Source of the DNA: a virus
Strand: one strand, 5' to 3'
IMG/VR virus record: IMGVR_UViG_3300003322_000744
Location: 1 to 37,943 of that record
Length of the DNA stretch: 37,943 nucleotides
In this document: positions 3,246-20,057 of the stretch, piece by piece
Layout of the letters: every line of letters starts with the position of its first letter
Position numbering within the stretch: the stretch's first letter is position 1
Position numbers and translations under genes: made by a program
The notes under the pieces: model-generated
Told to the model about the DNA's origin: nothing
The model's input: the letters and a program-made list of their open reading frames with translations, nothing else
Database searches by the model: none

Positions 3246-3276
3246 CGCCTGGCTTAAACGCCAGGCGTTGCTGTTT
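3246..3276 (+). terminator. Terminator after the packaging block
   Basis: CGCCTGGC at 3246-3253 pairs perfectly with GCCAGGCG at 3260-3267 around a TTAAAC loop, followed by TTGCTGTTT. It lies between the stop of terL and the convergent HNH gene. The rest of 3172-3364 shows nothing else I can support. Confidence 0.8.
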
Positions 3277-3364
3277 ATGGGGGAAGTCGTCCTGGCGCGG
3301 CCCGCGACGCCATTCGGCCAGAATGACATCCTCCGTATGGACCGCGCCGGCCGATTTGCTCTGG

Positions 3365-3823: not shown

Positions 3824-3830
3824 GTCACTC

Positions 3831-3836
3831 AATATA
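3831..3836 (-). promoter_or_regulatory. -10 element of the HNH gene (leaderless start)
   Basis: On the minus strand TATATT is followed by exactly 7 bases and then the ATG at 3823. Transcription starting about 7 bases downstream of a -10 would begin at or next to the start codon. No good -35 is visible at 17 bases. Confidence 0.6.
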
Positions 3837-3870
3837 CCAGTTGACAGAATCGCTGCCGCTTTCTAAACTG

Positions 3871-3884
3871 TCCTTGCGCAAGGA
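3871..3884 (+). promoter_or_regulatory. CTTGCGCAAG palindrome upstream of the first glycosyltransferase gene
   Basis: The 14-base perfect palindrome TCCTTGCGCAAGGA contains the 10-base core found before three other genes (start codons 9062, 35499, 35773) and, one base short, before a fourth (33384). Here it lies in the divergent gap between the HNH gene and the glycosyltransferase gene. A -10 at the usual distance is poor, so this copy may be a regulator site more than a promoter. Confidence 0.55.
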
Positions 3885-3897
3885 AAGGCGGTTTGGA

Positions 3898-4629
3898 TTG
3901 GAAACAGTGTTGTGCGTCATGCTGGCCGACGGGCGGCAGAAAATGGTTGAGCGAGCGATCCGCTGTTTCAATCGGCAGACATACCCGCAACGGACCCTGC
4001 TAATCCTTGATAGCGGCAAAGTGCCATTGGATCTTCAAGTGGCGCGCCATATCCATGTGACGCGGCTGGGGCCCAGCGAACCACGAAGAACCATTGGTTT
4101 TCTGCGGAACCTTGCGAACTGCACCGCGGTCGGCGGCTGCTTCAACGCTCCGATCATCGCCCATTGGGATTCAGACGATTACAGCGGGCCGCTGCGCCTC
4201 GAGGAGCAAGTTAAATTGCTAGAGACCAGCGGCGCCGACGCGGTGGGATATCACCAGATGCTGTTTTGGAACTGCGATCCTAATAGGCAGTGCGCAAACG
4301 CGATCTGTCAACTAACCGGCATGCACGAACCAAAATGCGGTGAGGCGTGGCTGTATAGCAGTCCGAATCTCAAATACTGCATGGGAACGTCGCTGCTTTA
4401 TTGGCGGCGCGCGTGGGAAAAGCACCCGTTTCCGGACAAACAGATCGGCGAAGACACGGAATGGCAGATGAAGGTTAAGACGGCGGCAGAAACGAGCGTG
4501 CGGCAACCGCCGCGGATGATTGCAACGATTCACGGCCGCAATACTACTGCCGCTATTAAACCGGGAGTCGCGGAGTGGTCGCGCGCGCAAATGCTGGATG
4601 CAGAGTGCTGGAGGGCGTTGGCGCTATGA
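3898..4629 (+). CDS. Glycosyltransferase, GT-A fold, family 2-like
   Basis: 243 residues from the chosen TTG. It is predicted to transfer a sugar from a nucleotide-sugar donor; donor and acceptor are unknown. The N terminus has the first GT-A strand (TVLCVMLADGR), then a helix ending in NRQTYPQRTLLILDSG. The metal-binding DXD-type motif is HWDSDDYSGP at about residue 88. A later acceptor-side segment has GEDTEWQMK. The start is uncertain: TTG 3898 keeps the first strand and has AGGAAAGG 9 bases upstream, while TTG 3910 and ATG 3919 would trim it. It overlaps the next methyltransferase gene by ATGA, so the two are probably co-translated. Confidence 0.82.
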   Translation: METVLCVMLADGRQKMVERAIRCFNRQTYPQRTLLILDSGKVPLDLQVARHIHVTRLGPSEPRRTIGFLRNLANCTAVGGCFNAPIIAHWDSDDYSGPLRLEEQVKLLETSGADAVGYHQMLFWNCDPNRQCANAICQLTGMHEPKCGEAWLYSSPNLKYCMGTSLLYWRRAWEKHPFPDKQIGEDTEWQMKVKTAAETSVRQPPRMIATIHGRNTTAAIKPGVAEWSRAQMLDAECWRALAL

Positions 4630-5135
4630 GTATTTCCACGCCGGTCCAACCGGCCCGGCCATTTCAGTTTCGCGATGGCGACATCCGCTGGAACCTGGGT
4701 TCCTGCGACCGCCACTTTCCCGGTTACATTTCCATCGATATCTGCGACCCATGCGATATCCAGTGGGATCTTCGCCAGCCCTGGCCGGCAACGGATTCGT
4801 CTGTGGACGAGATCCGCGCTTACGATATCATCGAGCACTTGCCGGACAAGATCTTCACCATGAACGAAGCGTGGCGGGTGCTGAAGCCGAATGGTCTGTT
4901 CGATATTGAAGTGCCGACCACGGACGGGCCCGGCGCCTGGCAGGATCCGCAACACGTCTCGTATTGGAACAGGAACAGCTTTTTTTACTTTACGGACGGC
5001 GATCCGCACCGGGAGCGCTTCGGCAAGCACTACGGCGTCCTGGCCCGCTTCCGCGTTCTTCAGTCGGCATTGGTGAAAGAAGCGAATTTTGTTGTGAAAC
5101 TGAAGATCGGGCTGCAGGCAGTAAAGCGTGCTTGA
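4626..5135 (+). CDS. Class I SAM-dependent methyltransferase
   Basis: 169 residues. The Rossmann-type SAM site is visible as WNLGSCDRHFPGYISIDIC at about residues 19-38; the usual Gly-x-Gly is reduced to GSC. It is followed by a DEIRAYDIIEHLPD strand and then EAWRVLKPNGLFDIEVP, the Methyltransf_11-type pattern. A DPQHVSYWNRNSFFYFTDGD segment is typical of methyltransferases in glycan clusters. The substrate is unknown; position directly after a glycosyltransferase suggests a sugar or glycosylated product. It starts in an ATGA overlap. Confidence 0.85.
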   Translation: MSISTPVQPARPFQFRDGDIRWNLGSCDRHFPGYISIDICDPCDIQWDLRQPWPATDSSVDEIRAYDIIEHLPDKIFTMNEAWRVLKPNGLFDIEVPTTDGPGAWQDPQHVSYWNRNSFFYFTDGDPHRERFGKHYGVLARFRVLQSALVKEANFVVKLKIGLQAVKRA

Positions 5136-5152
5136 CGGATTGGAGGTGTATT

Positions 5153-5314
5153 ATGTACGGACCAGATATGGGAAACGTATGGATGTGCTTCGTGATGGGA
5201 GCGCTCGCCGGCGGCCGAAAGACTGACCAGGAAGCCATCCGCAGCGCTGATGAAATGCTGGCGGCTTACAAGAAGCGCTTTCCGCCACCGGAACAAAAAA
5301 CACAGGAGGGCTAA
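5153..5314 (+). CDS. Small hypothetical protein
   Basis: 53 residues, opening MYGPDMGNVWMCFVMGALAGG, followed by a charged helix with two Lys-Lys-Arg-Phe-Pro-Pro-type segments. GGAGG at 5141-5145 is well placed before the ATG. The first half is hydrophobic enough to be a weak membrane helix. Not recognised. It sits between the methyltransferase and a second small orphan and overlaps that one by one base. Confidence 0.6.
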   Translation: MYGPDMGNVWMCFVMGALAGGRKTDQEAIRSADEMLAAYKKRFPPPEQKTQEG

Positions 5315-5601
5315 TGACAGCCGCAGAGAAATGCATAGCCTCGCGTTTGCTGGATATGGCGGGCGAAAGGTTTCACGAGGACAGTTGCACTGATACGGAC
5401 CCGGAACTATTCGATGGGCTTGATGAAGATGAAATAGCCAACTTAGCCACTGGCTTTAATGCCTGGTATCGAGGCGACACCGGCGAAACCTGCGGTGATC
5501 CTGACGCACTAGAACGGTCTGTGCGCCAAATTCAAGTTGACGAATGGATGGGTTACATGGCCGCTGTTGTCGGTCGACCCGCGACTTTCCCTGCGGAGTA
5601 A
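5314..5601 (+). CDS. Small acidic hypothetical protein
   Basis: 95 residues, strongly acidic (for example EDSCTDTDPELFDGLDEDE) with a GFNAWYRGDTGETCGDPDAL middle. No domain recognised. It begins one base inside the previous stop, so it is translationally coupled in the accessory island. Confidence 0.6.
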   Translation: MTAAEKCIASRLLDMAGERFHEDSCTDTDPELFDGLDEDEIANLATGFNAWYRGDTGETCGDPDALERSVRQIQVDEWMGYMAAVVGRPATFPAE

Positions 5602-5610
5602 ACAAACACC

Positions 5611-5892
5611 ATGAACATAGTGACTGGAATCCTTCTCGCGTTGCAGTATGCGCCTTACGTGGTCCAGGCGGTTATAGCCATTGAGCAGACCATTCGAGGC
5701 GTACCGGGCAGCGTCAAAAGACAGATTGTTCTTGATGCGATCCAAGCTGGCGCAGCCGGCACCGATGAACCAAAGCCGGCCGGCCTGAACGAACATATAG
5801 TCGGCACCATGATCGACAATGTGGTAGCGACGCTGAATCAGTCGGGTGTATTTCAGAAGGGACCGCAACCACCAACACCACATGTACAGTAA
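5611..5892 (+). CDS. Small phage orphan with hydrophobic N terminus
   Basis: 93 residues. The first 30 (ILLALQYAPYVVQAVIAIEQ) form a hydrophobic or amphipathic helix; then a KRQIVLDAIQAGA helix, and a closing segment with TMIDNVVATLNQSGVF. I recall similar short proteins in phage genomes near lysis or structural genes but cannot assign a function. GGAG lies 14 bases before the ATG, a loose spacing. It overlaps the next glycosyltransferase gene by 11 bases. Confidence 0.6.
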   Translation: MNIVTGILLALQYAPYVVQAVIAIEQTIRGVPGSVKRQIVLDAIQAGAAGTDEPKPAGLNEHIVGTMIDNVVATLNQSGVFQKGPQPPTPHVQ

Positions 5893-6643
5893 GATCGCTG
5901 TCGTTATCCCGTCTCGTAACATCAACAATTTGACCCACTGCGTAGCTTCAGTACTGCTATGCGAGCCCAACATCGACGTGTTGGTTGTCGATGATGGATT
6001 GGAGCACTGGCCGCAGACATTTCATCTGAACGGCATCCGGAGAGTGGAAGGTGTGAAGCCGTTTATCTATGCCCGGAATTGCAACGAGGGAATGATGGCA
6101 GCGCAGATAGATCAGGACATCATTCTCTTGAACGATGACGCGCTCCTGGAAACGCACAAAGGTTTCTCTAAAATGCGGCAGGAATGGCTCGACAACCAGG
6201 AATACGGAATCATCGGCGCAAGCATGGATAAGTCCGGACAGCCAGAACAGCTTCGCCGCGGCCTGGCTGGGTTGCGGCCGGTAAAATGGATGCTGGTGTT
6301 TGCCTGCGTGTTCATCCCGCGACTAACCATTGAGCGCATCGGCTTTCTGGACGAGCGGTTCTCCGTGAACGCTGGCGGGAAAGGGCCTCGAGGATACGGT
6401 TGCGAGGACGATGATTATTCATGGCGGGTCCGCAGTGCCGGATTGAAGCTGGGCGTATCGGATTCGTGCTTTGTAAATCACTCCACGCTACCAAGCACGT
6501 TCCGAGACGATCCGGAACACAAGGCGGATGTAAGCCTTCACGAGGCGGTCTTTATGCGGAAATGGGGCGTGCATCCGCATGACTGGAAACGTCCATACGT
6601 TGAGCGGCCGCAACCAAAGGAGGTTATATGGCCAGTAAGATGA
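5882..6643 (+). CDS. Glycosyltransferase family 2-like
   Basis: 253 residues. The GT-A nucleotide-binding half is clear: KIAVVIPSRNINNLTHC, then IDVLVVDDG, and the DXD-type ILLNDDALL at about residue 82. The second half has the acceptor-side GYGCEDDDYSWRVRSAGLKL, the ED motif of inverting family 2 enzymes, and a following VNHSTLPS. This resembles glycosyltransferases that add sugars to polysaccharide or protein acceptors. The start is at ATG 5882, inside the end of the previous gene; an ATG at 5846 is in frame but adds a non-conserved His-rich tail. AAGGAGG near its end serves the next gene. Confidence 0.88.
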   Translation: MYSKIAVVIPSRNINNLTHCVASVLLCEPNIDVLVVDDGLEHWPQTFHLNGIRRVEGVKPFIYARNCNEGMMAAQIDQDIILLNDDALLETHKGFSKMRQEWLDNQEYGIIGASMDKSGQPEQLRRGLAGLRPVKWMLVFACVFIPRLTIERIGFLDERFSVNAGGKGPRGYGCEDDDYSWRVRSAGLKLGVSDSCFVNHSTLPSTFRDDPEHKADVSLHEAVFMRKWGVHPHDWKRPYVERPQPKEVIWPVR

Positions 6644-6828
6644 GCAGAGCAAAACGTCGCAGAGAACACTTTCCTAAGCAACTCTATGTTTACCGCGAAA
6701 ACTTCGGCACAGAGGATGAATTTTACAGCACCAACGAAGGTTACAATGGCATTCCGGACGGGGCGCCAGTAGCAATTTATGTGCTCAAAGAAATCAAACG
6801 GATGAGTATCAAAGAAGAACTAGTATGA
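6628..6828 (+). CDS. Small basic hypothetical protein
   Basis: 66 residues, basic N terminus (KMSRAKRRREHFPK) followed by a LYVYRENFGTEDEFYSTNEG strand region. A near-perfect Shine-Dalgarno AAGGAGG lies 5 bases before the ATG, one of the best in the window. It overlaps the glycosyltransferase by 16 bases and the next methyltransferase by 4. Function not recognised. Confidence 0.65.
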   Translation: MASKMSRAKRRREHFPKQLYVYRENFGTEDEFYSTNEGYNGIPDGAPVAIYVLKEIKRMSIKEELV

Positions 6829-7382
6829 CCGCACCGCTTGGAATACCAGGCTGGCTGTCCGATGAGAACCGAGAGCAGTTAGAAGATCTGATAGCTGTTC
6901 ACGATGTGCGGTCGGTGATAGAGATAGGTTCATTCATGGGCCTTTCTGCTGTCTGGTTCGCGAGTCATCCGCAGATCGAACGAGTAACGTGCATCGACAC
7001 ATGGTACGAGCCGGCCAATTACGAAAGCGAGAACAACTTAGTAGCTACGCTGCGGCGATGGGAACTGCCGCGCGACTTCTTTCCTTTGTTTCGCGACAAT
7101 GTCATGCGGTCCGGATACTGGCATAAGATCCACCCGCTACGCGGGCACTCGCGCTACATCTGTGGCGAGGCGCCGGAAGCAGATCTGGTCTATATCGATG
7201 GGGATCATTCCTACGAGGGCGTCGAGCGAGACATTACGCTCTATCGCCCGAAAGCCAAAAAGGTGATCGCGGGCGATGATTTTGTGAAGCGCTATGGCTT
7301 CGGGGTCATTGAGGCTGTACGCGAGATGTTGCCGAATTATCAAGCTGTGGGGCCGTTTTGGTGGAGTATTCTGGTGTCATGA
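6825..7382 (+). CDS. Class I SAM methyltransferase (Methyltransf_24-like)
   Basis: 185 residues. The SAM-binding motif is VIEIGSFMGLSAVWFA at about residues 31-46, then VTCIDTWYE; later ADLVYIDGDHSYEGVERDI, whose Asp-Gly-Asp-His-Ser-Tyr is diagnostic of the CmcI/TylF-like O-methyltransferase group, and VIAGDDF. Such enzymes often O-methylate sugars or natural products. It lies between a glycosyltransferase and an HNH gene and uses ATGA overlaps on both sides. The substrate is inferred only from neighbours. Confidence 0.9.
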   Translation: MTAPLGIPGWLSDENREQLEDLIAVHDVRSVIEIGSFMGLSAVWFASHPQIERVTCIDTWYEPANYESENNLVATLRRWELPRDFFPLFRDNVMRSGYWHKIHPLRGHSRYICGEAPEADLVYIDGDHSYEGVERDITLYRPKAKKVIAGDDFVKRYGFGVIEAVREMLPNYQAVGPFWWSILVS

Positions 7383-7870
7383 GAGCCGACCTATTCTGGA
7401 AGAAAGTCCACAAGACAAACGATTGTTGGCTTTGGGTCGGCAGTAAACTGCCAAAGCCATTTGATTACGGGCAGTTCAACATTGGACAGCACAAGACGGC
7501 GCGGGCGCACCGGGTTTCATGGATGCTAGCAAATGGGCCGATTCCTTCAGGCCTTTGTGTCCTGCACAAATGTGATGTCTACAGTTGTGTCAATCCAGAG
7601 CATTTATTCCTGGGAACAGTTGCTGAGAATGTTGCGGATATGGTGCAAAAAGGTAGGCAGCGTGGCGCTGTTGGTAATCGCAATATCTCGCATAAGAAAC
7701 CAGAACATCGACGTGGTGTAAATAACGGCAGAGCCAAGTTGGATGCCTCTGCGGTAACGCTGATTCGCTGCGACAAGCGGAGAACATCAGAACTAGCCAC
7801 AGCGTTTAATGTCTCAATTGCGTTGATTTACAAGATCAGGTCGCGGGAAGTGTGGAAGCACATCGCATGA
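7379..7870 (+). CDS. HNH homing endonuclease
   Basis: 163 residues. HNH_3-type core: CWLWVGSKLPKPFDYGQF, RAHRVSWMLANGPIPSG, then VLHKCDVYSCVNPEHLFLG with the Cys-His and Asn-His pair, and NVADMVQKGR. The C-terminal 50 residues (ASAVTLIRCDKRRTSELATA, then VSIALIYKI) form a helix-turn-helix for DNA recognition. It is on the same strand as its neighbours, with ATGA overlaps, and sits inside the glycosyltransferase/methyltransferase island, so it may have been carried in with it. Confidence 0.92.
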   Translation: MRADLFWKKVHKTNDCWLWVGSKLPKPFDYGQFNIGQHKTARAHRVSWMLANGPIPSGLCVLHKCDVYSCVNPEHLFLGTVAENVADMVQKGRQRGAVGNRNISHKKPEHRRGVNNGRAKLDASAVTLIRCDKRRTSELATAFNVSIALIYKIRSREVWKHIA

Positions 7871-8598
7871 ACGTAACCGTTTTTCTCCCCGTTTTCGAAG
7901 AGATCGATATCCTGCCATGGGTGTTGAAACACTGGCGCAACCATGGTTGCCACGTGCACGCCATCGATGGTTGGTCAACCGATGGCAGTTACGAGTTGCT
8001 CAAGAGTGCCATGGGTGTATCAGTGTCGCGATTTCCAGAGAGCGGGCCGGCGCTGGTGAATCACTATCGCAGGCTACTCAAACACATCGAGGACTTAGCG
8101 CTGGGCTCGGATGCGGATTGGTGTTATCTGTCTGACGCGGACGAATGGCGCCGGTCCGTCGTGCGCCGAGAGACGATGTGCCAGGCGCTGACCCGTATAG
8201 ATGGACTTGGCCATAATGTCCTGGATCACAAAGTATATTCGTTCGTCTGCATCGATGATAAATGGTCTGGTGATCCAGAAACCTATTTTCAGTTTTACGA
8301 TCCAAACGAACCGATAGCCAAACTGCCACAAGAGAAAGCGTGGAAGAATGACCGGCGTGTTGATCTGCACAGCCATGGCGGGCACCTCATTCTGCGCCCG
8401 GATAAACGGCTGCATCCAGTCAAGTTTGTGATGAAGCATTATCCGTACCGCACGCCGGCCCAGGCTAAAGCAAAGGTGGAAACTAGGCTGGCGCGCCGGG
8501 CGCAGGACGAATACCGTGATGGCTGGGGCGTCCATTACGACGCGTTTCCGGCCGGATTCTCGTACAAGTGGGATCCGGCCAAGCTGGTTCGGTTTTGA
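7867..8598 (+). CDS. Glycosyltransferase, GT-A fold (Glyco_tranf_2_4-like)
   Basis: 243 residues. The N terminus VTVFLPVFEEIDILPWVLKH and HVHAIDGWSTDGSYELL is the donor-binding half. WCYLSDADEWRR at about residue 90 holds the DXD metal site. A later HSHGGHLILRPDKRLH and MKHYPYRTPAQAK segment is typical of this sub-family. It is the third glycosyltransferase of the island, distinct in sequence from the other two. The ATG at 7867 overlaps the HNH stop; ATG 7852 is possible but adds only five residues. Confidence 0.85.
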   Translation: MNVTVFLPVFEEIDILPWVLKHWRNHGCHVHAIDGWSTDGSYELLKSAMGVSVSRFPESGPALVNHYRRLLKHIEDLALGSDADWCYLSDADEWRRSVVRRETMCQALTRIDGLGHNVLDHKVYSFVCIDDKWSGDPETYFQFYDPNEPIAKLPQEKAWKNDRRVDLHSHGGHLILRPDKRLHPVKFVMKHYPYRTPAQAKAKVETRLARRAQDEYRDGWGVHYDAFPAGFSYKWDPAKLVRF

Positions 8599-8795
8599 AG
8601 TTCCCGGCAGACCGGGATGCATGGACGCGCGTTTGCAGCGATGTGGTACCCAACGCTGTGTATAGCTGGCGCGGTGACGTGCTCTTGCAAAAGCCGGTGA
8701 AAAGGGCCCGCTGGGCGCGGCTGCGGGCCCCAAGACATAAATGGCACGAAAGACCAAATATAAGTGGCAGAAGGGCAGGGAACGATGGGATCTAG
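8595..8795 (+). CDS. Possible small basic protein (uncertain)
   Basis: A 66-residue frame starting with TTG in an overlap with the previous stop. It is basic and Trp-rich (VYSWRGDVLLQKPVKRARWA) and fills the gap 8599-8740, but its end runs 55 bases into the next gene in another frame. No family recognised and no good ribosome site. Possibly real, possibly chance. Confidence 0.25.
   Translation: MKFPADRDAWTRVCSDVVPNAVYSWRGDVLLQKPVKRARWARLRAPRHKWHERPNISGRRAGNDGI
8704..8730. repeat. 8-bp perfect hairpin
   Basis: GGGCCCGC at 8704-8711 pairs with GCGGGCCC at 8723-8730 around an 11-base loop. AAAA precedes it, so a U-tract would exist only for leftward transcription, although flanking genes go right. 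It could damp antisense transcription or attenuate read-through after the island. Confidence 0.5.
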
Positions 8796-8989
8796 TTCTT
8801 GCCGGCGACCCGGATTGTTTCGCGTATATGATCCGCTGCCAGGGAAAGGTGTGGCGCGACTATATAGCATGGTGCTGGAGCCTTACTACGCCACGCGGAT
8901 CTCAGGGGCAACGATTCTCCGGTTGGGCGCCGTCCGCGTTTGAAGCCAAGCTTCAAGTAGAGGCGGAGATCAGGCGGAGATGGGCATAA
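8741..8989 (+). CDS. Small hypothetical protein
   Basis: 82 residues, basic and aromatic: KTKYKWQKGRERWDLVLAGD, then VWRDYIAWCWSLTTPRG, ending FEAKLQVEAEIRRRWA. Not recognised. No clear ribosome site; it begins 11 bases after the hairpin at 8704-8730. It is the first of a run of short orphans. Confidence 0.5.
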   Translation: MARKTKYKWQKGRERWDLVLAGDPDCFAYMIRCQGKVWRDYIAWCWSLTTPRGSQGQRFSGWAPSAFEAKLQVEAEIRRRWA

Positions 8990-9024
8990 CCTTTCGCCAC
9001 AGCATCGCCCTAGCCATCGTGAAC

Positions 9025-9054
9025 CTTGCGCAAGAACCTTTTCCATCGTATGGT
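9025..9054 (+). promoter_or_regulatory. Palindromic -35 promoter for the gene at 9062
   Basis: CTTGCGCAAG at 9025-9034 contains TTGCGC (9026-9031) as a -35-like element. A 17-base spacer leads to TATGGT (9049-9054), and 7 bases later comes the ATG at 9062. No Shine-Dalgarno is present. The layout matches three other genes in the window. Confidence 0.7.
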
Positions 9055-9061
9055 GTCAGTC

Positions 9062-9235
9062 ATGACGAAGCTAATTCTTATCGGAATCCTCGCAGCCTTC
9101 ACCGGGGCCCTATTACACGGCCACGCTCCAAGGCTTTTATCGGACATCAAATGGGAGTGGTATTACTTCCCGTCTCTTATCGCAGGATGCGTGGCGGTCG
9201 CCAGCATGAAGAGCGCGCTGGAGAGACTGAAGTGA
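9062..9235 (+). CDS. Small membrane protein
   Basis: 57 residues. One N-terminal membrane helix (KLILIGILAAFTGALLHGH) and a second probable helix at about 36-50 (FPSLIAGCVAVAS). The ATG at 9062 is set by the promoter geometry, with the -10 ending 7 bases upstream; an upstream TTG frame would place the palindrome inside the gene. It overlaps the next small membrane gene by GTGA. A holin role is conceivable for this pair, but early-type regulation argues for something else, such as superinfection exclusion. Unproven. Confidence 0.6.
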   Translation: MTKLILIGILAAFTGALLHGHAPRLLSDIKWEWYYFPSLIAGCVAVASMKSALERLK

Positions 9236-9399
9236 TCACAGGGCGGGCGTTGATAGCGATCTGGTTCGCGTGCGTGGCTGGCCAGTGCTTCTATCAGCTT
9301 TTCACGAGGCAGGAGTGGTCGCGCACCGCAGAGCGATCTTGGTTTCAGGCATGGGCATTGTTGCTATGTTGGCTGTGGCTAAACGCGGGGCGGTTATGA
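9232..9399 (+). CDS. Small membrane protein, GTG start
   Basis: 55 residues with two hydrophobic stretches (ALIAIWFACVAGQCFYQLF at about 5-23, and FQAWALLLCWLWL at about 38-50) separated by a charged turn. The GTG lies in a GTGA overlap with the previous stop and the end is an ATGA overlap with the next gene, which makes the reading frame convincing. A two-helix hairpin of this size fits holins or small exclusion proteins; no family is recognised. Confidence 0.6.
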   Translation: MITGRALIAIWFACVAGQCFYQLFTRQEWSRTAERSWFQAWALLLCWLWLNAGRL

Positions 9400-9620
9400 A
9401 GACCCGGGAGAACCTGTTGCTGGTCCAGACGGCATATAGGCGGCTAAACGGCGCCAACATCCACCGCGGCACAGCCATCATTCAGGCCTATCGAAACGCC
9501 ATCACTCTTGCGACAGATCCGCGCTGCCGCAACAAGCGATCGGCGCGCGTGGCACTGGCAACGGCAGAGGGCGAATTGCAGCGGTTCTGCCATCCGATGA
9601 CAAGGGGGGCAGTGGCATGA
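9396..9620 (+). CDS. Small hypothetical protein
   Basis: 74 residues, basic and helical: MKTRENLLLVQTAYRRLNGA, then AIIQAYRNAITLATD and a Cys-containing basic tail. Both ends use ATGA overlaps. No family recognised; a small DNA- or RNA-binding helical protein is possible. Confidence 0.55.
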   Translation: MKTRENLLLVQTAYRRLNGANIHRGTAIIQAYRNAITLATDPRCRNKRSARVALATAEGELQRFCHPMTRGAVA

Positions 9621-9802
9621 ATATGTTCGTAATCGTAGCGCACGAAGCGAACGGCGAGGTGTGCGGTCGACACTGGGCGCGCGCGCCGTTAGGGGATGTT
9701 GAGGTTAAGCGGACCGAGCACGGCTTCGGCGCGGTATATAAGAACGGCATCTGCCTAGTGGCCCATCCGTTCGGCGGCTGGTTCGAGATCCTGGCATGCT
9801 GA
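9617..9802 (+). CDS. Small hypothetical protein
   Basis: 61 residues, mostly beta-like (FVIVAHEANGEVCGRHWARA, then FGAVYKNGICLVAHPFGGWF). The start overlaps the preceding stop by ATGA and the end overlaps the next gene by 7 bases. Not recognised. Confidence 0.55.
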   Translation: MNMFVIVAHEANGEVCGRHWARAPLGDVEVKRTEHGFGAVYKNGICLVAHPFGGWFEILAC

Positions 9803-10155
9803 TCCGGTACCGCAACACTGACCGCGCCATCCGCGTCAATGAGATCAACGGATGGAACCGCGGCGAAATCACCCCACAAATGAGTGCCAGCAGCGGGTTC
9901 AAAGAGAACGTCGCCAACTGGGTATTCCAGGAATTCGGCCTCCGACCGGAAGCGGTCCGGATCATCATGGTCCGCGGCGAATACAAGCTGTCGCCGCCGT
10001 TCGCACTGTTCCAAACGCTATCGGTTGGCTGGATTGATTCCGAAGGCCGGCCAGTGGAAATTGAAGGAGAGATCAGCACATGGACTGCACCGGCCAATGC
10101 CACGGATGCGCCTACAAAACCGGCGCCGCCGCCAACCTCGAGCCACATAACCTGA
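9796..10155 (+). CDS. Hypothetical protein
   Basis: 119 residues with an RYRNTDRAIRVNEINGWNRG opening, an amphipathic VANWVFQEFGLRPEA segment, and a Pro/Thr-rich C-terminal tail. The last 76 bases are shared, in another frame, with the next gene, so the tail may be tolerated rather than selected. No family recognised. Confidence 0.55.
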   Translation: MLIRYRNTDRAIRVNEINGWNRGEITPQMSASSGFKENVANWVFQEFGLRPEAVRIIMVRGEYKLSPPFALFQTLSVGWIDSEGRPVEIEGEISTWTAPANATDAPTKPAPPPTSSHIT

Positions 10156-10685
10156 TCCGCGGGTTCTTCGCCGCCATGGGCGGCTTTCCGTTCTTCTGCC
10201 ATGAATCGCTGGGATGGACACCCGATCGGGATGGTTATCCGGACGAGCGCGCCCACTTGCTGGGCATTTCCAAGAAAACGCTAATCTCGCTGGGGGCGCT
10301 TCCGGAGGCCATAGACCAACGGATAGCCCAGGTACGGCGCGACGCGCGAACCTGTGGCGGCTGGCGCGCGGCGGTGGCCAAGCTACGGGACGCCGGCTGG
10401 TACACAAAGCTGGGCGTGGACGTCCGAAACTACCGCCGCCAGATGGCCAAACTGGGCAGCAATGCGCTGGACGATTACATCCTGGTCAGCAAACTGAAAA
10501 TGCGGGACTGGCGGGACGCCATCCATCCGGAGAACCCGCTCGGCAGCGAGAAGTCGCTGCGCGCGGCCAAACGCGAAGCGTACCGTAGCTTGAGGATGTA
10601 TTTTGAATTTTTCATCGAAGATGCGAAGGAGCAAGGCGTCGATATCCGGTGGTTGGTTGGATCTCGCCGGCAACCGAGGCTATAA
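10080..10685 (+). CDS. Hypothetical protein with Cys-rich N terminus
   Basis: 201 residues. The N terminus has Cys3, Cys7 and Cys10 (MDCTGQCHGCAYKTG), then FPFFCHESLGW, suggesting a metal site. The rest is helical and basic, with GISKKTLISLGALPEAIDQR and a C-terminal FFIEDAKEQGVDIRWLVG. I have seen this Cys-rich opening in phage orphans but know no function. GGAGAG ends 9 bases before the ATG, so the 76-base overlap with the previous gene looks real. Confidence 0.65.
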   Translation: MDCTGQCHGCAYKTGAAANLEPHNLIRGFFAAMGGFPFFCHESLGWTPDRDGYPDERAHLLGISKKTLISLGALPEAIDQRIAQVRRDARTCGGWRAAVAKLRDAGWYTKLGVDVRNYRRQMAKLGSNALDDYILVSKLKMRDWRDAIHPENPLGSEKSLRAAKREAYRSLRMYFEFFIEDAKEQGVDIRWLVGSRRQPRL

Positions 10686-10686
10686 A
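10657..10686 (+). promoter_or_regulatory. Promoter for the gene at 10693 (leaderless type)
   Basis: TTGGAT at 10657-10662, an 18-base spacer, and TATAAA at 10681-10686. The ATG at 10693 follows after 6 bases and no Shine-Dalgarno is visible. The -10 overlaps the stop codon of the preceding gene. Confidence 0.55.
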
Positions 10687-10692
10687 TTGGCT

Positions 10693-10935
10693 ATGGCGAA
10701 CCGGCGAAAGGAAAACGCCGTCTGGCGGCGGCTGAAGGGCTTTCACATCGAGGCGCGGTTGCCCGGCGCGGTCCTGGTATTTTCTGCCTCGGTGCCTTTG
10801 ACGCGCAGAGCATCGTTAAGCCTGGTCGAAGCGATCTTGACGCATGGGAATGGTATGCTGTCGCTGAACGTGGCGACCGACAGGATTCCGAACTGCGATC
10901 CGCCAGCAAGGGGGCCTAATGGATCTGTTCAATGA
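10693..10935 (+). CDS. Small hypothetical protein
   Basis: 80 residues, basic start (MANRRKENAVWRRLKGFHIE) and beta-like middle (GAVLVFSASVPLT). The ATG at 10693 is preferred because it follows a -10 element at 6 bases. Not recognised. It overlaps the next gene by 17 bases. Confidence 0.5.
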   Translation: MANRRKENAVWRRLKGFHIEARLPGAVLVFSASVPLTRRASLSLVEAILTHGNGMLSLNVATDRIPNCDPPARGPNGSVQ

Positions 10936-11233
10936 GAAAGCATTCTACGCAGACGTGGTATCGCCGGCAATATCGAGATTGAACCAGGAGACCGTGCCCG
11001 CGTTGCGCAACGGCGTCGAGGGCATCGTCCAGCAACTCTTTGATCGGTTGAAGTTGGAATTGGCGCGCTCGCTGCAGCAAATTGAGTCAACATGTAAGTC
11101 GACCGTCGATAACGTCCAAACGTCCATACGATCGCTGGACGGTGCGAACCTGTCGATGGAGTCTTTCTCGATTCAGATCACAGTGCCGGCGCTAACGATC
11201 AAACTGCAGGTGCCTCCGGGAGATGCGCATTAG
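10919..11233 (+). CDS. Helical hypothetical protein
   Basis: 104 residues. A long helix (about 15-65: ISRLNQETVPALRNGVEGIV, then LARSLQQIESTCKSTVDNVQ) suggests a coiled-coil oligomer, and the last 30 residues alternate as beta strands (SFSIQITVPALTIKLQV). No family recognised. It lies in the run of orphans just upstream of the portal gene. Confidence 0.6.
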   Translation: MDLFNEKAFYADVVSPAISRLNQETVPALRNGVEGIVQQLFDRLKLELARSLQQIESTCKSTVDNVQTSIRSLDGANLSMESFSIQITVPALTIKLQVPPGDAH

Positions 11234-11506
11234 ATGTTCTCTGCGGACCAGTTGCTCGCAATCATGGAGCGGCACTATCTTGCTGGCAACAAAATAATCA
11301 TCGCATCGATGCAGCAGTGGTCAGTTGGAAACATCGCGCACAGGTTGACTACGGGTCCAGACGGAGTGGTGTTCGGCCATCCTCCATTGCGAGTGCTGGC
11401 TGAAGTTACCTATCAAGAGTATCTGGCAAACCGGCCAGAGGAATTTGGCGAACCGAATCCAGAGGATCGTAAGCTTTATTATTTCCATGTAGAGCCTTGC
11501 GACTGA
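11234..11506 (+). CDS. Small hypothetical protein
   Basis: 90 residues: LLAIMERHYLAGNKIIIASM, a central GVVFGHPPLRVLAEVTYQEY, and an acidic tail ending YYFHVEPCD. It begins immediately after the previous stop. Not recognised. Confidence 0.6.
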   Translation: MFSADQLLAIMERHYLAGNKIIIASMQQWSVGNIAHRLTTGPDGVVFGHPPLRVLAEVTYQEYLANRPEEFGEPNPEDRKLYYFHVEPCD

Positions 11507-11538
11507 TGCGCCGCTTCTAGCTTTTCATACGGTGATGG

Positions 11539-11544
11539 TACAAT
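11539..11544 (+). promoter_or_regulatory. -10 element of the portal gene (leaderless start)
   Basis: TACAAT ends exactly 7 bases before the ATG at 11552, with no Shine-Dalgarno in between. TTCTAG at 11515-11520 could act as a weak -35 at an 18-base spacing. It heads the portal block after a 45-base gap. Confidence 0.65.
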
Positions 11545-11551
11545 TCCGGCC

Positions 11552-13471
11552 ATGAGAAGCCGGATTCAACGAATGCTTCGTTGGCTGTTGCGCAAGGCCG
11601 CCACACCGCCTCCCAGCCAGGACGAAACGATCCACCGCTTGGCAAAACGGCTGCTGGAACTGGAAAGCCAGGAGGCTTCCGGTCGGGCCATGTACATGGA
11701 GATGGTTTCGGACCTGGTGGAAGCACGCCAGATGGCCGGCGCGGGCCCATGGAAGGTGTCACCGGCCGCGATCGCCGAAACCGACAGAATTATCGCTGAG
11801 GCGCAAGACCGTGCACAGCGGCCGCTGGGTGTAAGGGAGTCAACGTCACTTCTGCCGCGCGGCGCCAGCGTCGACCTGGAATTCCTGCTGGCCAATGGCG
11901 ACTGGCAGCGAATCTCGTCCACCTCGTGGCTGGAATTCTCACGCTGGGGAATTCAGCAGCTTATCCTGGTCTGCCGACTGTACTACATCAAGCACCCATG
12001 GATTCGCCGCGGAGTAAACATCTCGGCAGCCTACGTATTCGGCCAAGGAGTCGAACTGTCGTCGCCTGATCCGGACGCCAACGAACAGTTGAAGCGGTTT
12101 CGCGATAACAACAAGGCGGCGTTGGGCCAGATCGCGCTGACCGAAGCAGAGAGGGTCAAGTCATACGACGGGAATATCTTTTGGTGCCTATTTCCGGACA
12201 CCCAGAACACCGGTGAAGTGGCGGTTCGAACCATCGACGCGACGGAAATCACAGAAATCATTTGCGATCCCAACGACGCGACCGTGCCGTGGTTCTACAA
12301 GCGGGAATGGCTGCAGCGTACCTACGATGCTTCAACCGGCGCATGGAACAACAGCAACATGAAGCTGTGGTATCCAGCGATGTCTTACCAGCCCGAAAAT
12401 AGGCCGGCGGCGCTTGGCGAAGTTTCGATTATGTGGGACGCGGTTATCTACCACCGCAAGGTCGGTCATATCGCCAACTGGACGTTCGGCTGTCCTCGCG
12501 TATTCGCGGCGATCGATTGGGCGAAGCAGGGGAAACGGCATCTCGACCAGTGCGCCAAGGTTACGAAAGCCTTGTCCGATATCGCGATTCACATCAGCAC
12601 CAAGGGTGGACAGGCCGGCGTCAACGCGCTCGAAAAGAAACTGCGCGGCCCATCGTCAGACATAGCGGACCTTGTTGATGACCAAGCTGGCTCGACGCTC
12701 ATTACGGGCCCAGGTGCAGCGTTGAACGTGCTGCGGACTCGTGGCGCCGGCGCCCAGCCAGAGGAGGTGAAAGAGTACCGGAATATGGCGGCTTGCTGCC
12801 TCGACGTTCCGCCTACCTGGCTGGGCGATATGGAGACCAGCAACCTTTCGACAGCGCAAACCCTCGACCGGCCAACAGAATTGGGATTCCTGCTTCGCCA
12901 GGAGGAGTGGCAGGAGGATCTCAGCGTCATGGGGATATATGCGCTGCAGACGTCTGCGCGGGCGCCATCCGGCCGCTTGCGCGGGGCGCTTCAGAAACGT
13001 CCCGCTGGCGGCGAGGTCCGGATACAAGAAGCAAGTAGAGTGTTGCATCGTGGCCACTGGAAACACGAAGCAGCCAAGATCCGGCAACCTGGCGTGATCG
13101 AAGTGCTTTGCAATTTCCCGGCTATCCGCGAGGGCGATATTGGAGGGCTCGTCTCTGCAACCGTTAGCGCGATGACGCTTGGCACCCAGAGCGTTATTGG
13201 GATCGACGAGAAGGCCGGCGTGCGCAAATTGCTCGACCTTTTGGGTTTTGACGATGCGGACCAGATCGTTGAGCAAATGTACCCCGAGAAGGAGTACGAG
13301 ATGGACCGCACGCTGGAACCGGAACCCGAACCGGAACCGACTGCCGCGGGTTCGCCGGCGACTGCCGTGAACCCCATCGAGGTTGCGCTGGTGAGACGCG
13401 CGGTTCAGCGCGTAAACGCCGCGCTCGCGCTGGCCAAGGAGACCAACGGAAATGCTGCAGGTGCTCACTGA
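11552..13471 (+). CDS. Portal protein
   Basis: 639 residues, on the long side for portals. It forms the dodecameric ring through which DNA enters the head. Supporting stretches: WLEFSRWGIQQLILVCRLYY then IKHPWIRRGVNISAAYVFGQ (the clip/wing start), a WFYKREWLQR strand region, and MAACCLDVPPTWLGDMETSN with STAQTLDRPTELGF, typical of portals near the crown. The C terminus has an acidic Glu-Pro repeat (EPEPEPEPT at about 588-598) and a final helix. The N-terminal 100 residues are a variable helical region. The start is set by a -10 at 7 bases. It is separated from terL by 8.4 kb, unusual for a siphovirus where the two are often adjacent. Confidence 0.88.
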   Translation: MRSRIQRMLRWLLRKAATPPPSQDETIHRLAKRLLELESQEASGRAMYMEMVSDLVEARQMAGAGPWKVSPAAIAETDRIIAEAQDRAQRPLGVRESTSLLPRGASVDLEFLLANGDWQRISSTSWLEFSRWGIQQLILVCRLYYIKHPWIRRGVNISAAYVFGQGVELSSPDPDANEQLKRFRDNNKAALGQIALTEAERVKSYDGNIFWCLFPDTQNTGEVAVRTIDATEITEIICDPNDATVPWFYKREWLQRTYDASTGAWNNSNMKLWYPAMSYQPENRPAALGEVSIMWDAVIYHRKVGHIANWTFGCPRVFAAIDWAKQGKRHLDQCAKVTKALSDIAIHISTKGGQAGVNALEKKLRGPSSDIADLVDDQAGSTLITGPGAALNVLRTRGAGAQPEEVKEYRNMAACCLDVPPTWLGDMETSNLSTAQTLDRPTELGFLLRQEEWQEDLSVMGIYALQTSARAPSGRLRGALQKRPAGGEVRIQEASRVLHRGHWKHEAAKIRQPGVIEVLCNFPAIREGDIGGLVSATVSAMTLGTQSVIGIDEKAGVRKLLDLLGFDDADQIVEQMYPEKEYEMDRTLEPEPEPEPTAAGSPATAVNPIEVALVRRAVQRVNAALALAKETNGNAAGAH

Positions 13472-13643
13472 AGAGGCCGCTGGCTGCTGTCGACGCGGGT
13501 GGTTCGCTGCGGTGGAAAGTGGAAAGCTGGTTGGCGTCAGGCGTTGGGCGTGCAAGCGTTGCGGAACGGAATTCGAACCACGCATGCACGAAGGACTTCA
13601 GATGTGGGATATGGTCGCGCCGACGGCTCTGGTGAAGCGGTGA
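13452..13643 (+). CDS. Small zinc-ribbon-like hypothetical protein
   Basis: 63 residues: GCCRRGWFAAVESGKLVGVR, then WACKRCGTEFEPRM, a CxxC-type half-ribbon. It overlaps the portal end by 20 bases and the next gene by GTGA. Function unknown. Confidence 0.5.
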   Translation: MLQVLTEEAAGCCRRGWFAAVESGKLVGVRRWACKRCGTEFEPRMHEGLQMWDMVAPTALVKR

Positions 13644-13798
13644 AGGTTCACATTCAATGGGGTACGCCCCACACCATTCGGGACGAAAGCAACAAACCGA
13701 TCGCGGAATGCTTCGATATGGACATAGCTCAAGTGATCGCACACGCTGTAAACGCTGCGGACCGGTTTGATCCTGACGAGGAGGATACGCTCGGGTGA
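13640..13798 (+). CDS. Small acidic hypothetical protein, GTG start
   Basis: 52 residues: KVHIQWGTPHTIRDESNKP, then DMDIAQVIAHAVNAADRFDP and an acidic tail. GTGA overlaps mark both ends, which supports coding. Not recognised. Confidence 0.5.
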   Translation: MKVHIQWGTPHTIRDESNKPIAECFDMDIAQVIAHAVNAADRFDPDEEDTLG

Positions 13799-14118
13799 GA
13801 CGTCGACGCACGTCAGGTGCGCCGCTGGCGGCCGCGCTCGAGGCGCTGGCGGTGGCGATCGCCGTAGCTGCAGCAATGCCGTTGCTCGAGGCTGCTGGCG
13901 AGTATTACTACGACACGGAAAACGTCAAGCGCTGGGTGCTGGGTCCGGGCGGCAAGAGCGGCAACTGCGAGATGTGCATCGACAATTCCGACCTGGGTTG
14001 GATTCCGGATGACGATGTTTATGAAGGGGTGTTTGGCGATGTCGACGGACCGCCGGCGCATCCGCACTGTACCTGCGAACTGGAGTACAAAGAAAAGCGG
14101 TACCGGGTGTACGTATGA
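13795..14118 (+). CDS. Short MuF-like minor head protein
   Basis: 107 residues, much shorter than full MuF proteins (usually over 250), keeping only the C-terminal conserved region: KRWVLGPGGKSGNCEMCIDN, then DDDVYEGVFGDVDGPPAHPH, then CTCELEY. The Cys-x-x-Cys and His-Pro-His-Cys-x-Cys pattern is the hallmark. An Ala-rich N-terminal helix precedes it. GTG start in a GTGA overlap. It directly follows the portal cluster, as MuF proteins do. The missing N-terminal part may have been lost in this phage. Confidence 0.7.
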   Translation: MRRRRTSGAPLAAALEALAVAIAVAAAMPLLEAAGEYYYDTENVKRWVLGPGGKSGNCEMCIDNSDLGWIPDDDVYEGVFGDVDGPPAHPHCTCELEYKEKRYRVYV

Positions 14119-14267
14119 ACATCGCTTGCTGGCTTTTCGGCCACGAACCGATCAACGGAAATGAATATGTGAAGGGGTGCGGGTGTAGGTTGTGGCGGTG
14201 GTTCTGCGCGCGCTGTTCTCGCCCGCTTGAAACGATCACGTTCGCTTGTCTGCGACATAGGAAGTAG
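14115..14267 (+). CDS. Small Cys-rich protein
   Basis: 50 residues: MNIACWLFGHEPINGNEY, then GCGCRLWRWFCARCSRPLE. Four closely spaced cysteines plus two others suggest a small zinc-binding protein; the opening Cys-Trp-Leu-Phe-Gly-His is shared with short phage and bacterial orphans. It begins in an ATGA overlap and ends just before the next promoter. Confidence 0.6.
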   Translation: MNIACWLFGHEPINGNEYVKGCGCRLWRWFCARCSRPLETITFACLRHRK

Positions 14268-14270
14268 AAT
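14265..14270 (+). promoter_or_regulatory. -10 element of the gene at 14277 (leaderless start)
   Basis: TAGAAT ends 6 bases before the ATG at 14277; TTCGCT at 14241-14246 could be a weak -35 with an 18-base spacer. The -10 overlaps the stop codon TAG of the preceding gene. No Shine-Dalgarno. Confidence 0.55.
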
Positions 14271-14276
14271 CAAACT

Positions 14277-14423
14277 ATGACCACGCTCCATTTCCTGCTT
14301 CTGGCGGTTGGCGCGCTCCTAATGCTGCTCGCTGCGATGAAGGTCGAGCAGCAAAAAGTAAACTTCGGCTGGCTCGGGTTGCTGCTGTGGCTGGTGGCGC
14401 TGCAGGTAGCGTCGGGCAAATGA
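14277..14423 (+). CDS. Two-helix membrane protein, holin-like
   Basis: 48 residues, nearly all hydrophobic: helix one LHFLLLAVGALLMLLAAM (about 4-21), a charged turn KVEQQKVN, helix two GWLGLLLWLVALQVAS. The size and hairpin topology resemble small class II or III holins, but nothing else identifies it. It has its own -10 and overlaps the next gene by ATGA. Confidence 0.6.
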   Translation: MTTLHFLLLAVGALLMLLAAMKVEQQKVNFGWLGLLLWLVALQVASGK

Positions 14424-14818
14424 GCCTGATAAAAGCATACGCGCGCGCCCAATTCCGGCCGCCCGGCGACTTTTTAATCGGCTTTCGATCGAAACTTATA
14501 GCCGCGACCGAGCGTGCCCAGCAGATAGCGCTGCAGGAAGCGAAAGCAATCGTCCCGGTGGATACGGGCCTCCTCCGCGACAGCATCGAGAAAGGGCCAG
14601 TCGTCGACGATGGTCAGATGGTAACCGGGACCGTCTTCGCCACCGCTCCCTACGCTGGCTATGTCGAATTCGGGACCGGACGCCGGGGTGCCGAATCGCC
14701 CGGGAGTGATCTCAGGCATAGCTACACTTTAACGTGGCCAGGCCAAGTTGCGAAACCATACCTGAGACCAGCCCTTGACAACGCGCGGCAGCGAGTCCGT
14801 GAAGAATTCAGCAGGTAA
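14420..14818 (+). CDS. HK97-gp10-like head-tail protein
   Basis: 132 residues. Hallmarks: EAKAIVPVDTGLLRDSI at about residues 46-62, then YAGYVEFGTG near 80, and KPYLRPALDNARQRV at the end. In HK97-like phages the family acts at the neck or tail terminus. ATG 14420 is taken from the ATGA overlap. It precedes a second adaptor-like gene, and both are separated from the main neck genes by fibre and capsid genes. Confidence 0.85.
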   Translation: MSLIKAYARAQFRPPGDFLIGFRSKLIAATERAQQIALQEAKAIVPVDTGLLRDSIEKGPVVDDGQMVTGTVFATAPYAGYVEFGTGRRGAESPGSDLRHSYTLTWPGQVAKPYLRPALDNARQRVREEFSR

Positions 14819-14851
14819 CCGCCTGCGCTCTTCAGAAGATTTGGAATAGTG

Positions 14852-14857
14852 TAAACT
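14852..14857 (+). promoter_or_regulatory. -10 element of the gene at 14865 (leaderless start)
   Basis: TAAACT ends exactly 7 bases before the ATG at 14865. No Shine-Dalgarno and no good -35. The same hexamer precedes the HNH gene at 36339. Confidence 0.55.
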
Positions 14858-14864
14858 GTCGCCA

Positions 14865-15134
14865 ATGGACCCGCAGTTGTCTTATGTTCGTCTGCTGATC
14901 GGTGACAATTCCCGCACCGATCCGTTTTACACCGACGCGCAGATCAAACGGGCTGCACAAATCAGTCCAGCGCGCGCACCGTTCCCGTTAGCGCTTCGCA
15001 TTTCCGGCATCGTTGGTGCGATCCGCTATCCGGACCTAAACCCGCCGAACGAAGCAGAACTTTCGCTTGCGGCACTAACCGATGATCAGTTGGCCGCTCT
15101 CACAGATGCGGAACTGGCGTCTATGGTGAACTGA
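14865..15134 (+). CDS. Short head-tail-adaptor-like protein
   Basis: 89 residues. The opening SYVRLLIGDNSRTDPFYTDA resembles the DHPRLLIGDTVDSGHIFEDE of the adaptor at 21469; both share RLLIGD, F-x-D and a following Ile/Ala helix. The C terminus is an Ala/Leu/Asp/Glu helical tail. It may be a shortened paralogue of the adaptor or a neck component in its own right. The fibre gene begins immediately after its stop. Confidence 0.55.
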   Translation: MDPQLSYVRLLIGDNSRTDPFYTDAQIKRAAQISPARAPFPLALRISGIVGAIRYPDLNPPNEAELSLAALTDDQLAALTDAELASMVN

Positions 15135-16931
15135 ATGAAACCCACGCGACAAGCGCCCATCTTCATGGTCATCGCCACATTGGTGTTTATCGGATCCTGC
15201 TTCATGATGTTCGGCCAATGGTCCGACTTCACTCCAGCGACAAAGTCCACGACGCTGATCAATGCGATGAATAGTAAGCCGGCGATTCAATCCGGAACAG
15301 GAACGCCGGGCGGGTCCTGCACTGCAGGGAAAGACTTCTACATCAAGACGTCGCCATCGCCGGGTACGCTCTACGCTTGTGGATCTGGCGGCACGTGGTT
15401 TGCAGTCAGTGGCGCCGGTCCAACAGGCGCAACTGGCACGGCCGGCAGCAATGGATCCGATGGTGCCGTAGGCGCAACTGGAGCGACTGGTTTGACGGGT
15501 TCGACAGGCGCGACCGGGGTTACTGGTTCTGTCGGCGCAACAGGAGCTACTGGAGTTACTGGTTCCGTCGGCGCAACAGGTGCTACTGGCGCGACGGGCC
15601 CAACGCTGTCTGGATTGACTACCAACGCTATCATTGCGGCGGCAAGTAGCACCACGGCGGCCACTCCATGCACAGGCTGCACGCTCGACAGCGCGGGGCT
15701 GTTCACTCATGCTGGTCGCTATGTCAACACGCAGAATGGTGCGCTCTCGGCACCTAGCATCACCGGGACAGGCACCTGGATCACCGGCGGCACGGCAACA
15801 ACGACAAAGCCTTATCTTTTGGTTGAGCCATCTGGAGCAACGTCGACAAATTGGTCAACGAACGGCACAGGTCTAGGAGTTAATGGCCCTTCTGGATTCA
15901 CCGGAAGTCTACTAGATGTGCAACTCAATGGGGGTGCGCGATTCTCTGTCAGTAGCGCAGGAGTCGTAACGAGTGGCGGTTCGATTACATCCGGTGGCAG
16001 CTTAACTATGGCATCTGCGAATACCTTACAATGGACAAGCAGAGCAAAGATACAAAGCCCATCGGATGGTGTATTGTTTTTGCAAAACAATGCGGGAACT
16101 GATTTTACCCGTTTACAATTCGGCGGCACAACCTCGTCCTTTCCATCGCTGAAACGGAATTCCGCAGCGCTGGCCGTGCGTCTTGCCGATGACTCAGCGG
16201 ATGCTGATCTCACTACAGCCGGTTTAACAGTGAGTGGGGTTGCAACACACACTGTCAACGGGGCGCTTTCTGCACCCGGCATCACTGCTACCGGGACATG
16301 GATCACAGGCGGCACGGCAACTACAACCAAACCGTATACGCTCATTGAGCCTTCAGGAGCGACATCGGCCAACTGGAGCACGAACGGAACGGGCCTCGGC
16401 GTAAATGCGGCCTCTGGATTCACCGGCAATCTATTCGATTTGCAGCTAAATGGCGCGGCGCGTTTTGCGATTGCATCGAATGGTGTCGTCACTTCCACTA
16501 GCACGTTCAACACAGGCGCTCTTGTTTCGAGCGGGAGTCTGAGCGCGTCCAGCACATCGGTGATGAATTGGAGTAGCCGCGCGCGGATGGCCTCGCCTGC
16601 AGATAAAGTTTGGACCGTTACTGATAACGGCAGCACCAACCTGGTGCGCTTCCAGACCGGCGCTTCCACGATTGCTTCGGGCTTCGGGACATCGCCCTCG
16701 ATTGCAGGCAGCGATACGGGCGGGCGCGTAACGGTCGGCACTGGCGGCTTGGCGAATTCAGGCGTTATCAATTTCGCAACGACTTGGAGCAACGCTCCGG
16801 CGTGTGTCGCGAACAATGAAACGACGCAACTGGTAGCATTCGCCACTGCCACCACGACGCAACTCACGATTGCGAGCACCACGGCTTTCGGCGCCGGCGA
16901 CAAGTTAACTTGGCACTGCACCGGATATTAA
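15135..16931 (+). CDS. Collagen-like fibre or surface protein with N-terminal lipoprotein-like signal
   Basis: 598 residues. Residues 1-22 look like a lipoprotein signal: basic start (KPTRQ), hydrophobic stretch, and a lipobox-like IGSC. Residues about 95-157 are 21 Gly-x-y triplets, mostly ending in Thr (GAT, GVT, GST). The rest is beta-rich, with two copies of a block of about 85 residues (starting near 201 and 375) opening NGALSAP and containing [15 protein letters not shown]. The C terminus ([10 protein letters not shown], then KLTWHCTGY) resembles phage fibre tips. It would be a trimeric fibre exposed on virion or cell surface. A membrane-anchored signal is odd for a virion fibre. Its Thr-rich collagen part is a candidate substrate for the island's glycosyltransferases. 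Confidence 0.75.
15519..15590 (+). repeat. 36-base direct repeat in the collagen-like region
   Basis: Two adjacent near-identical 36-base units (15519-15554 and 15555-15590), opening GTTACTGGTTC and encoding four Gly-x-y triplets each. Such units can expand or contract by slippage and change stalk length. Confidence 0.8.
15735..16500 (+). repeat. Diverged in-gene duplication, 522-base offset
   Basis: The block from about 15735 recurs from about 16257, with clear protein identity ([15 protein letters not shown], then [12 protein letters not shown], then SGFTG) over about 85 codons. The DNA is diverged, so the duplication is old. Confidence 0.75.
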
Positions 16932-16937
16932 AATCGA

Positions 16938-17498
16938 GTGGCGACCAGACCCCAACTCGCCGTTTGCGGGCTTGCCCTTGTGGCGCTGATCGCCAGCGTG
17001 ATGAATTCGCAGACGCAGACCGTCTCGATCAACGCTGGTGACCTTACAAGCCCCGGGATCATCGGCGTGATTCCGGGCCCGGGCGGTCGGCTGAAATTCA
17101 AAGTGGTCCCGCTATCGGGACTGACCTTTGATTCCGCGACCGGCACACTGATCGGCGGCGTTGGATCGGCCGGTCCGAGCGGGCCGACAGGACCAGCAGG
17201 AGGGCCGACCGGACCGAGCGGCCCGCAGGGACCGCCGGGCGCCGATGGATTGGCAGGAGTGGCCGGACCGCCAGGCGCTACCGGACCCGCAGGGGCACAG
17301 GGCGCAACCGGCACCAGCGGACCTTCTGGCGCGACCGGCGCACCGATCAGCTTCAATCTTCTCTACGCCGGGCAAAGCGGAGCGGGAGTGCCGTCGGGGC
17401 AATGTACGCCGACCGCAAGCGGGACGTTCTATATGGACACCGCGGGCTCGGTGCTGTATTGGTGTGACCAAGTCAATCATTGGAAACTGGTGCAATGA
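16938..17498 (+). CDS. Second collagen-like protein with N-terminal signal/anchor
   Basis: 186 residues, GTG start. The first 25 residues ([14 protein letters not shown]) are a signal peptide or membrane anchor. Residues about 77-137 are Gly-x-y repeats richer in Pro ([20 protein letters not shown]) with one extra-Gly interruption. The C terminus ([21 protein letters not shown]) is a short beta domain, possibly the trimer-forming or binding head. It follows the larger collagen-like gene after 6 bases without a Shine-Dalgarno; TATTAA at 16926-16931 ends 6 bases before the GTG. The next gene starts inside its stop. Confidence 0.75.
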
Positions 17499-20055: not shown

Positions 20056-20057
20056 TC

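Follow-up and report, generated by a model that had tools for sequence, protein, structure and literature searches.

A glycosyltransferase and methyltransferase cassette between the terminase and portal genes of an uncultured siphophage-like virus and its possible role in virion glycosylation

What is the task of glycosyltransferases and methyltransferases that are encoded among the packaging and head genes of a tailed phage? The question is raised by the IMG/VR virus record IMGVR_UViG_3300003322_000744, a linear siphophage-like genome of 37,943 bp (the whole of it is called the window below), in which three glycosyltransferases (GTs) of the GT-A/GT2 type and two class I S-adenosylmethionine (SAM) methyltransferases (MTs) are encoded within positions 3898-8598, between the terminase and the portal protein. 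Comparison with metagenomic relatives indicates that this cassette is real and recurrent, and that it occupies a conserved slot with modular gene content. As to its function, the best explanation, to which about an even chance is given, is that the cassette glycosylates and O-methylates the virion proteins of the phage itself, working like the enzymes of mycobacteriophage Corndog. Two collagen-like proteins of the same genome had been proposed as the target, and the island proved not to be tied to them when its relatives were compared.

The cassette and its slot

All genes of the cassette lie on the plus strand. GT1 (3898-4629) matches Glycos_transf_2 with an E value of 4e-4, which taken alone is under the Pfam cut-off, and its relatives score over the cut-off that it misses. 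The AlphaFold model of GT1 (pLDDT 91) has a GT-A fold with GT2-family enzymes (TarP, SpsA, RmlT) as nearest structures, and residues D91, D93 and D94 (DxDD) together with H212 are invariant across 57 homologues. The GT-A glycosyltransferase encoded by gene GT2 (5882-6643; Glycos_transf_2, E 1e-4) is slightly under the cut-off, and its homologues in relatives, up to 49% identical, score over it. GT3 (7867-8598) exceeds the cut-off for Glyco_tranf_2_4, carries a DADEW motif and has homologues of 43-49% identity in relatives. The SAM methyltransferases MT1 (4626-5135) and MT2 (6825-7382) exceed the Pfam cut-offs for Methyltransf_11 and Methyltransf_24 respectively, with homologues of 31-56% identity in the cassettes of relatives for MT1 and of 59-63% in relatives for MT2. 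The predicted fold of MT2 resembles COMT-like O-methyltransferases, which is taken as a hint only, given the weak model (pLDDT 68). Family searches alone undercount the methyltransferases, because a PF08241 search missed all MT1 homologues in relatives and BLAST recovered them.

The run also includes small open reading frames (ORFs; 5150-5892 and 6628-6828) and an HNH endonuclease gene (7376-7870; PF13392, E 6e-14; phrog_1872), which is probably not part of the glycan function. Start and stop codons overlap between GT1 and MT1 (4626/4629), between the small ORF at 6628 and MT2 (6825/6828) and between the HNH gene and GT3 (7867/7870), similar overlaps occurring in between, and the island genes are in tight translational coupling. 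The sequence-only reading of this DNA, which had described three GTs and two MTs in one coupled cluster, is in this respect confirmed by Pfam and fold evidence as well as by the overlaps. A putative sigma70-like promoter (3841-3869, plus strand, 10/12 match) is found directly 5' of GT1; it is regarded as a consensus match only, because 11 such sites were found against 7.0 +/- 2.4 in shuffles. Between the terminase and GT1 a minus-strand ORF (3365-3832) gives an HNH_3 match (PF13392, E 4e-6), so that a second HNH gene stands by the island.

No match to phage isolates was obtained by megablast with positions 3-18 kb of the window, and GT1 and GT3 gave no tblastn match at E 1e-3 among 50,697 phage records. 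Metagenomic relatives were gathered by alignments of the large terminase (TerL) and GT1, plus terminase homologues in genome bins; these queries were chosen because the portal alone yielded few relatives and the collagen-like protein COL1 yielded one partial fibre relative without collagen. Clustering of the terminases at 85% identity resulted in 47 lineages. The binned contigs include some of Bryobacteraceae/Bryobacterales (Acidobacteriota) with a terminase of 46-68% identity, which makes it probable that the host of these soil-type uncultured phages is acidobacterial, with the caveats that one beta-proteobacterial bin contig has a terminase of 61% identity and that GT1 was seen in none of three Bryobacter contigs.

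The slot is bordered on the left by TerL (1765-3171, plus strand; phrog_2, E 4e-27) and on the right by the portal protein (11552-13471, plus strand; phrog_10963, E 1e-61). GT1 adjoins the terminase in all ten lineages that were found by TerL alone with at least 50% identity and at least 9 kb downstream, lying not more than 1.6 kb downstream of it in nine and 1.5 kb upstream in one. It is absent in all nine lineages with a terminase of at most 42% identity and at least 4.6 kb downstream; in the zone of 44-49% terminase identity it is present in most, and missing in sub-branch L077 and in the metagenome-assembled genome contigs L175 and L180. A recognisable structural or packaging gene of the clade accompanies GT1 in 61 of 72 loci, and wherever a portal was recognised (39 loci; loci are not dereplicated in either count) it stands downstream of GT1, at a distance of 1.0-9.6 kb. 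The order also holds in loci with a terminase of a different family.

The exact order GT1-MT1-GT2-MT2-GT3-portal is shared by the window and four lineages (G024/G025, L141, L144 = L143, and L172). Other families recurring from terminase to portal are FkbM-, TylF- and Methyltransf_24-type MTs and more GT2-type GTs, and the sister islands hold sugar-pathway genes (epimerase, GDP-mannose dehydratase, DegT aminotransferase and Gfo/Idh). No nucleotide-sugar pathway was recognised in the island of the window, and some relatives carry one. The island of G047, a 44-kb phage contig, encodes a GDP-mannose 4,6-dehydratase and an adjoining epimerase (L197:9300-11188), as in a GDP-fucose-type pathway. Two island families with no Pfam match (clusters 3 and 4, for example L038:4919-5728 and L196:250-981), each present in 11 of 18 islands, are possibly unrecognised glycosyltransferases.

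Virion proteins as candidate acceptors

The nearest known arrangement is that of Corndog, a cluster O mycobacteriophage in which gp35-gp38 (an O-methyltransferase, two glycosyltransferases and an N-acetylglucosaminyltransferase, thus one O-MT and three GTs) are encoded between the portal and the protease (PMC4351075). That enzymes of this kind modify the capsid and the tail tube is a finding of Freeman et al. 2023, as reported by PMC11600133 and PMC12619734. Like Corndog, the window is a tailed-phage genome whose head-gene region holds several GTs and a putative O-MT in a single block, the GTs being small and cytosolic; Corndog's enzymes are themselves not virion proteins. It differs in that its slot lies between terminase and portal, its gene content is larger and more variable, its relatives add sugar-pathway genes and it is known from its genes alone.

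If the cassette works in this way, its GT-A enzymes, placed in the late region, would link a single sugar or a few of them to the acceptor within the cytoplasm of the host, the methyltransferases would then O-methylate the attached sugars, and the particle would leave the cell bearing a methylated glycan coat. Abundant virion proteins of the capsid and tail tube would be the likeliest acceptors; in the window the major capsid protein (MCP; 20058-21356, plus strand; phrog_133/4523) and the major tail protein (MTP; 23499-24047, plus strand; phrog_158, E 1.5e-7) are candidates by analogy only. Nucleotide sugars would be taken from the host by the window phage, while several relatives carry genes of their own for them. 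The position of the slot in front of the portal is fixed, its set of genes differs by exchange between lineages, and its sequences change faster than those of the virion proteins; such fast change is expected if the structure of the glycan is under diversifying selection.

Such a contrast is seen between the sister phages G024 and G025, where TerL (97%), portal (99%), MCP (98.5%) and MTP (97%) are nearly identical whereas GT1 has fallen to 57%, MT1 to 66%, GT3 to 71% and GT2 to 75%, with MT2 and the epimerase at 85-88%. Across 21 lineages the identity of GT1 is at most 54% and that of TerL reaches 78%. To judge from these alignments, the divergence of the cassette resembles the outcome of recombination or of diversifying selection acting on the structure of the glycan.

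Several points weigh against a virion target. The contrast between GT/MT and virion genes comes from one close phage pair, and in that pair some non-glycan genes diverge as well (45-87%). The distances of GT1 and TerL are weakly correlated (Mantel r 0.19, with 304 of 5000 permutations as high), so the presence of GT1 is conserved but co-inheritance of its sequence is unsupported. Lying in a late region is no proof that the enzymes act on virion proteins. We infer the acceptor and the glycan, including its linkage, the position of the methyl group and its purpose, from genes. As GT1 and GT3 lack a sequence match among the phage records, the parallel with Corndog is architectural only, and for the same reason, together with a glycan deduced from gene content, the window is not filed as a Corndog-type member.

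An extension of this explanation, which is considered doubtful, would make the slot the phage equivalent of an O-antigen locus: its exchanged or fast-diverging enzymes would give near-identical capsids differing methylated "glycotypes", and the collagen-like proteins would be exported to the host surface.

Other possible targets

Modification of host surface polysaccharide or S-layer glycans, by which superinfection by other phages would be blocked, is judged unlikely. The nearest solved folds of GT1 include the wall-polymer transferases TarP, TarS and RmlT, fast divergence would also suit an arms race at the cell surface, and the phage-borne GTs recall the Gtr serotype-conversion modules of temperate phages in being able to alter a surface glycan. 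Unlike those modules, however, the islands are placed among packaging and portal genes, and neither a flippase nor a periplasmic transferase was found: GtrA (PF04138) was detected in none of 31 records (controls were detected), and no polytopic, GtrC-like membrane protein (at least two transmembrane segments) was present among 179 island ORFs. Export could still be provided by host enzymes.

The proposal of the sequence-only reading was that the island could build a methylated glycan on a fibre of the phage itself, with the collagen region as the target. The collagen of BclA in the Bacillus exosporium bears O-glycans with a 2-O-methyl terminal sugar, and the window resembles it in combining a Gly-x-Thr collagen domain with GT and MT genes in one genome. 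COL1 (15135-16931, plus strand), a Thr-rich protein with an N-terminal signal/anchor-like segment, contains 21 uninterrupted Gly-x-y triplets, most of which, as had been noted, end in Thr (15 of them), and is the window protein richest in Ser/Thr (29%). COL2 (16938-17498, plus strand), with a signal-like N-terminal segment, has 16 such triplets, merely four ending in Thr. These runs are not due to chance, because 1000 shuffles gave maxima of 8 and 7 respectively. Glycosylation and methylation of the collagen region of COL1 and COL2 would also suit G047, whose gene-rich island is paired with an 18-triplet collagen, 17 of the triplets ending in Thr.

When the co-occurrence of both gene sets was examined, relatives were often found to keep the island without a collagen, an outcome that the sequence-only reading had itself named as its refutation. 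Among the 31 contigs of 37 kb or more that carry GT1, 24 had no collagen match at a threshold of E 0.01. G027, with GT1, more GT-like genes and an FkbM MT, has no Gly-x-y run of seven or more and is probably complete, because its 39.4 kb carry a 117-bp terminal repeat. None of the four lineages with the identical cassette yielded a collagen: G024 and G025 lack it in the portal-to-capsid region (their contigs stop inside the tape measure gene), G058, the 38-kb record of L172, lacks a match over the whole record, and L141 and L144 have no collagen domain in the 11-16 kb loci examined. Two apparent collagens had been dropped, an Ala-Gly-Val repeat ORF adjoining GT1 in G042 (L206) and a short 8-triplet membrane protein in G045.

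In most of the collagens found in relatives few triplets end in Thr (0-5 of 17-27), the counts being 1 of 17 in G017, 0 of 17 in G028 and 5 of 27 in L121. Nor do Gly-x-Thr triplets by themselves point to glycosylation, since Thr occupies 48% of Y positions in the collagens of Gram-positive bacteria (PMC3368898). Unlike BclA, the window has no recognised rhamnose or anthrose pathway.

Signal-like N-termini likewise speak against virion fibres. By a simple rule of hydropathy and cleavage motif, COL1 and COL2 are the sole plausible window genes with such N-termini, the other flagged ORFs lying across known genes but in a wrong frame or on the wrong strand. Similar segments, of which MKVLSIFILASAAIAQ and MKLTILLCALAVCPIAQAQ are examples, begin the collagen-like proteins of G017 (19835-20455), G047 (37942-38973), G028, G040, G044 and L121 (about 19.1-20.5 kb), and the fibre-like Ser/Thr-rich proteins in the portal-protease interval of G007 (1066-4220) and G018 (3651-4565); signal-like collagen- or fibre-like proteins are present in L204, L205 and L207 too. 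Sec-signal-like segments are unusual on tailed-phage fibres and unexpected for a fibre assembled in the cytoplasm. From these N-termini it is suggested that COL1, COL2 and the collagen-like proteins of relatives may be exported to the host surface or periplasm rather than being tail fibres. Thus a GT/MT island among virion genes remains plausible as the source of a methylated glycan, while the choice of collagen as its target did not hold: the link of COL1 and COL2 to the glycan system is unsupported and is considered quite improbable.

Sugar-hypermodified DNA resisting restriction is a still weaker candidate and is regarded as very improbable. Some viral GTs are known to hypermodify DNA (Pyle 2024, as cited in PMC12619734), the top PHROG of MT2 is labelled "DNA methyltransferase", and G026 carries a C5-methyltransferase-like ORF. 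Against this, no homologue of thymidylate synthase/hydroxymethylase was found in 31 records (controls were detected in 9), DPPY-type motifs were found in neither MT1 nor MT2, and the low-confidence model of MT2 matches COMT-like O-methyltransferases. A TET/JBP oxygenase was likewise found in none of the 31 records, but no positive control was detected either.

A soluble small glycoside or a metabolite of the host can hardly be what these enzymes make or modify in place of a macromolecule: natural-product pathways often include class I O-MTs and small GT2s, and relatives of TylF and Gfo/Idh occur in sister islands, but no scaffold-synthesis genes were recognised, and the fixed portal-side slot and clade-wide retention suit a virion function better.

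The rest of the window and the meaning of the cassette

In the PHROG-based annotation of the window a protease (18170-19654) and the tape measure gene (24839-29386) follow, and recombination genes lie beyond 33.6 kb. The gene between the terminase subunits (1223-1765) matches phrog_24928, a family of unknown function, with E 2e-42, and had no BLAST match in the first ten relatives compared. A tail-region protein (31407-32255) shows weak similarity, under the cut-off, to F5/8 type C (discoidin) and, on that similarity, is likely to be the tail-tip adhesin of the window, a candidate for carbohydrate binding.

For naming the acceptor of a glycan, the presence of a Thr-rich collagen next to GT genes is insufficient. 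So far, the case for glycosylated virions among tailed phages has been built on a few mycobacteriophages. That a fast-diverging GT/MT cassette is retained in a fixed position across a clade with no cultured relatives suggests that glycosylation of the particle is core to one or more large groups of environmental phages, and that the structure of the glycan is under selection.

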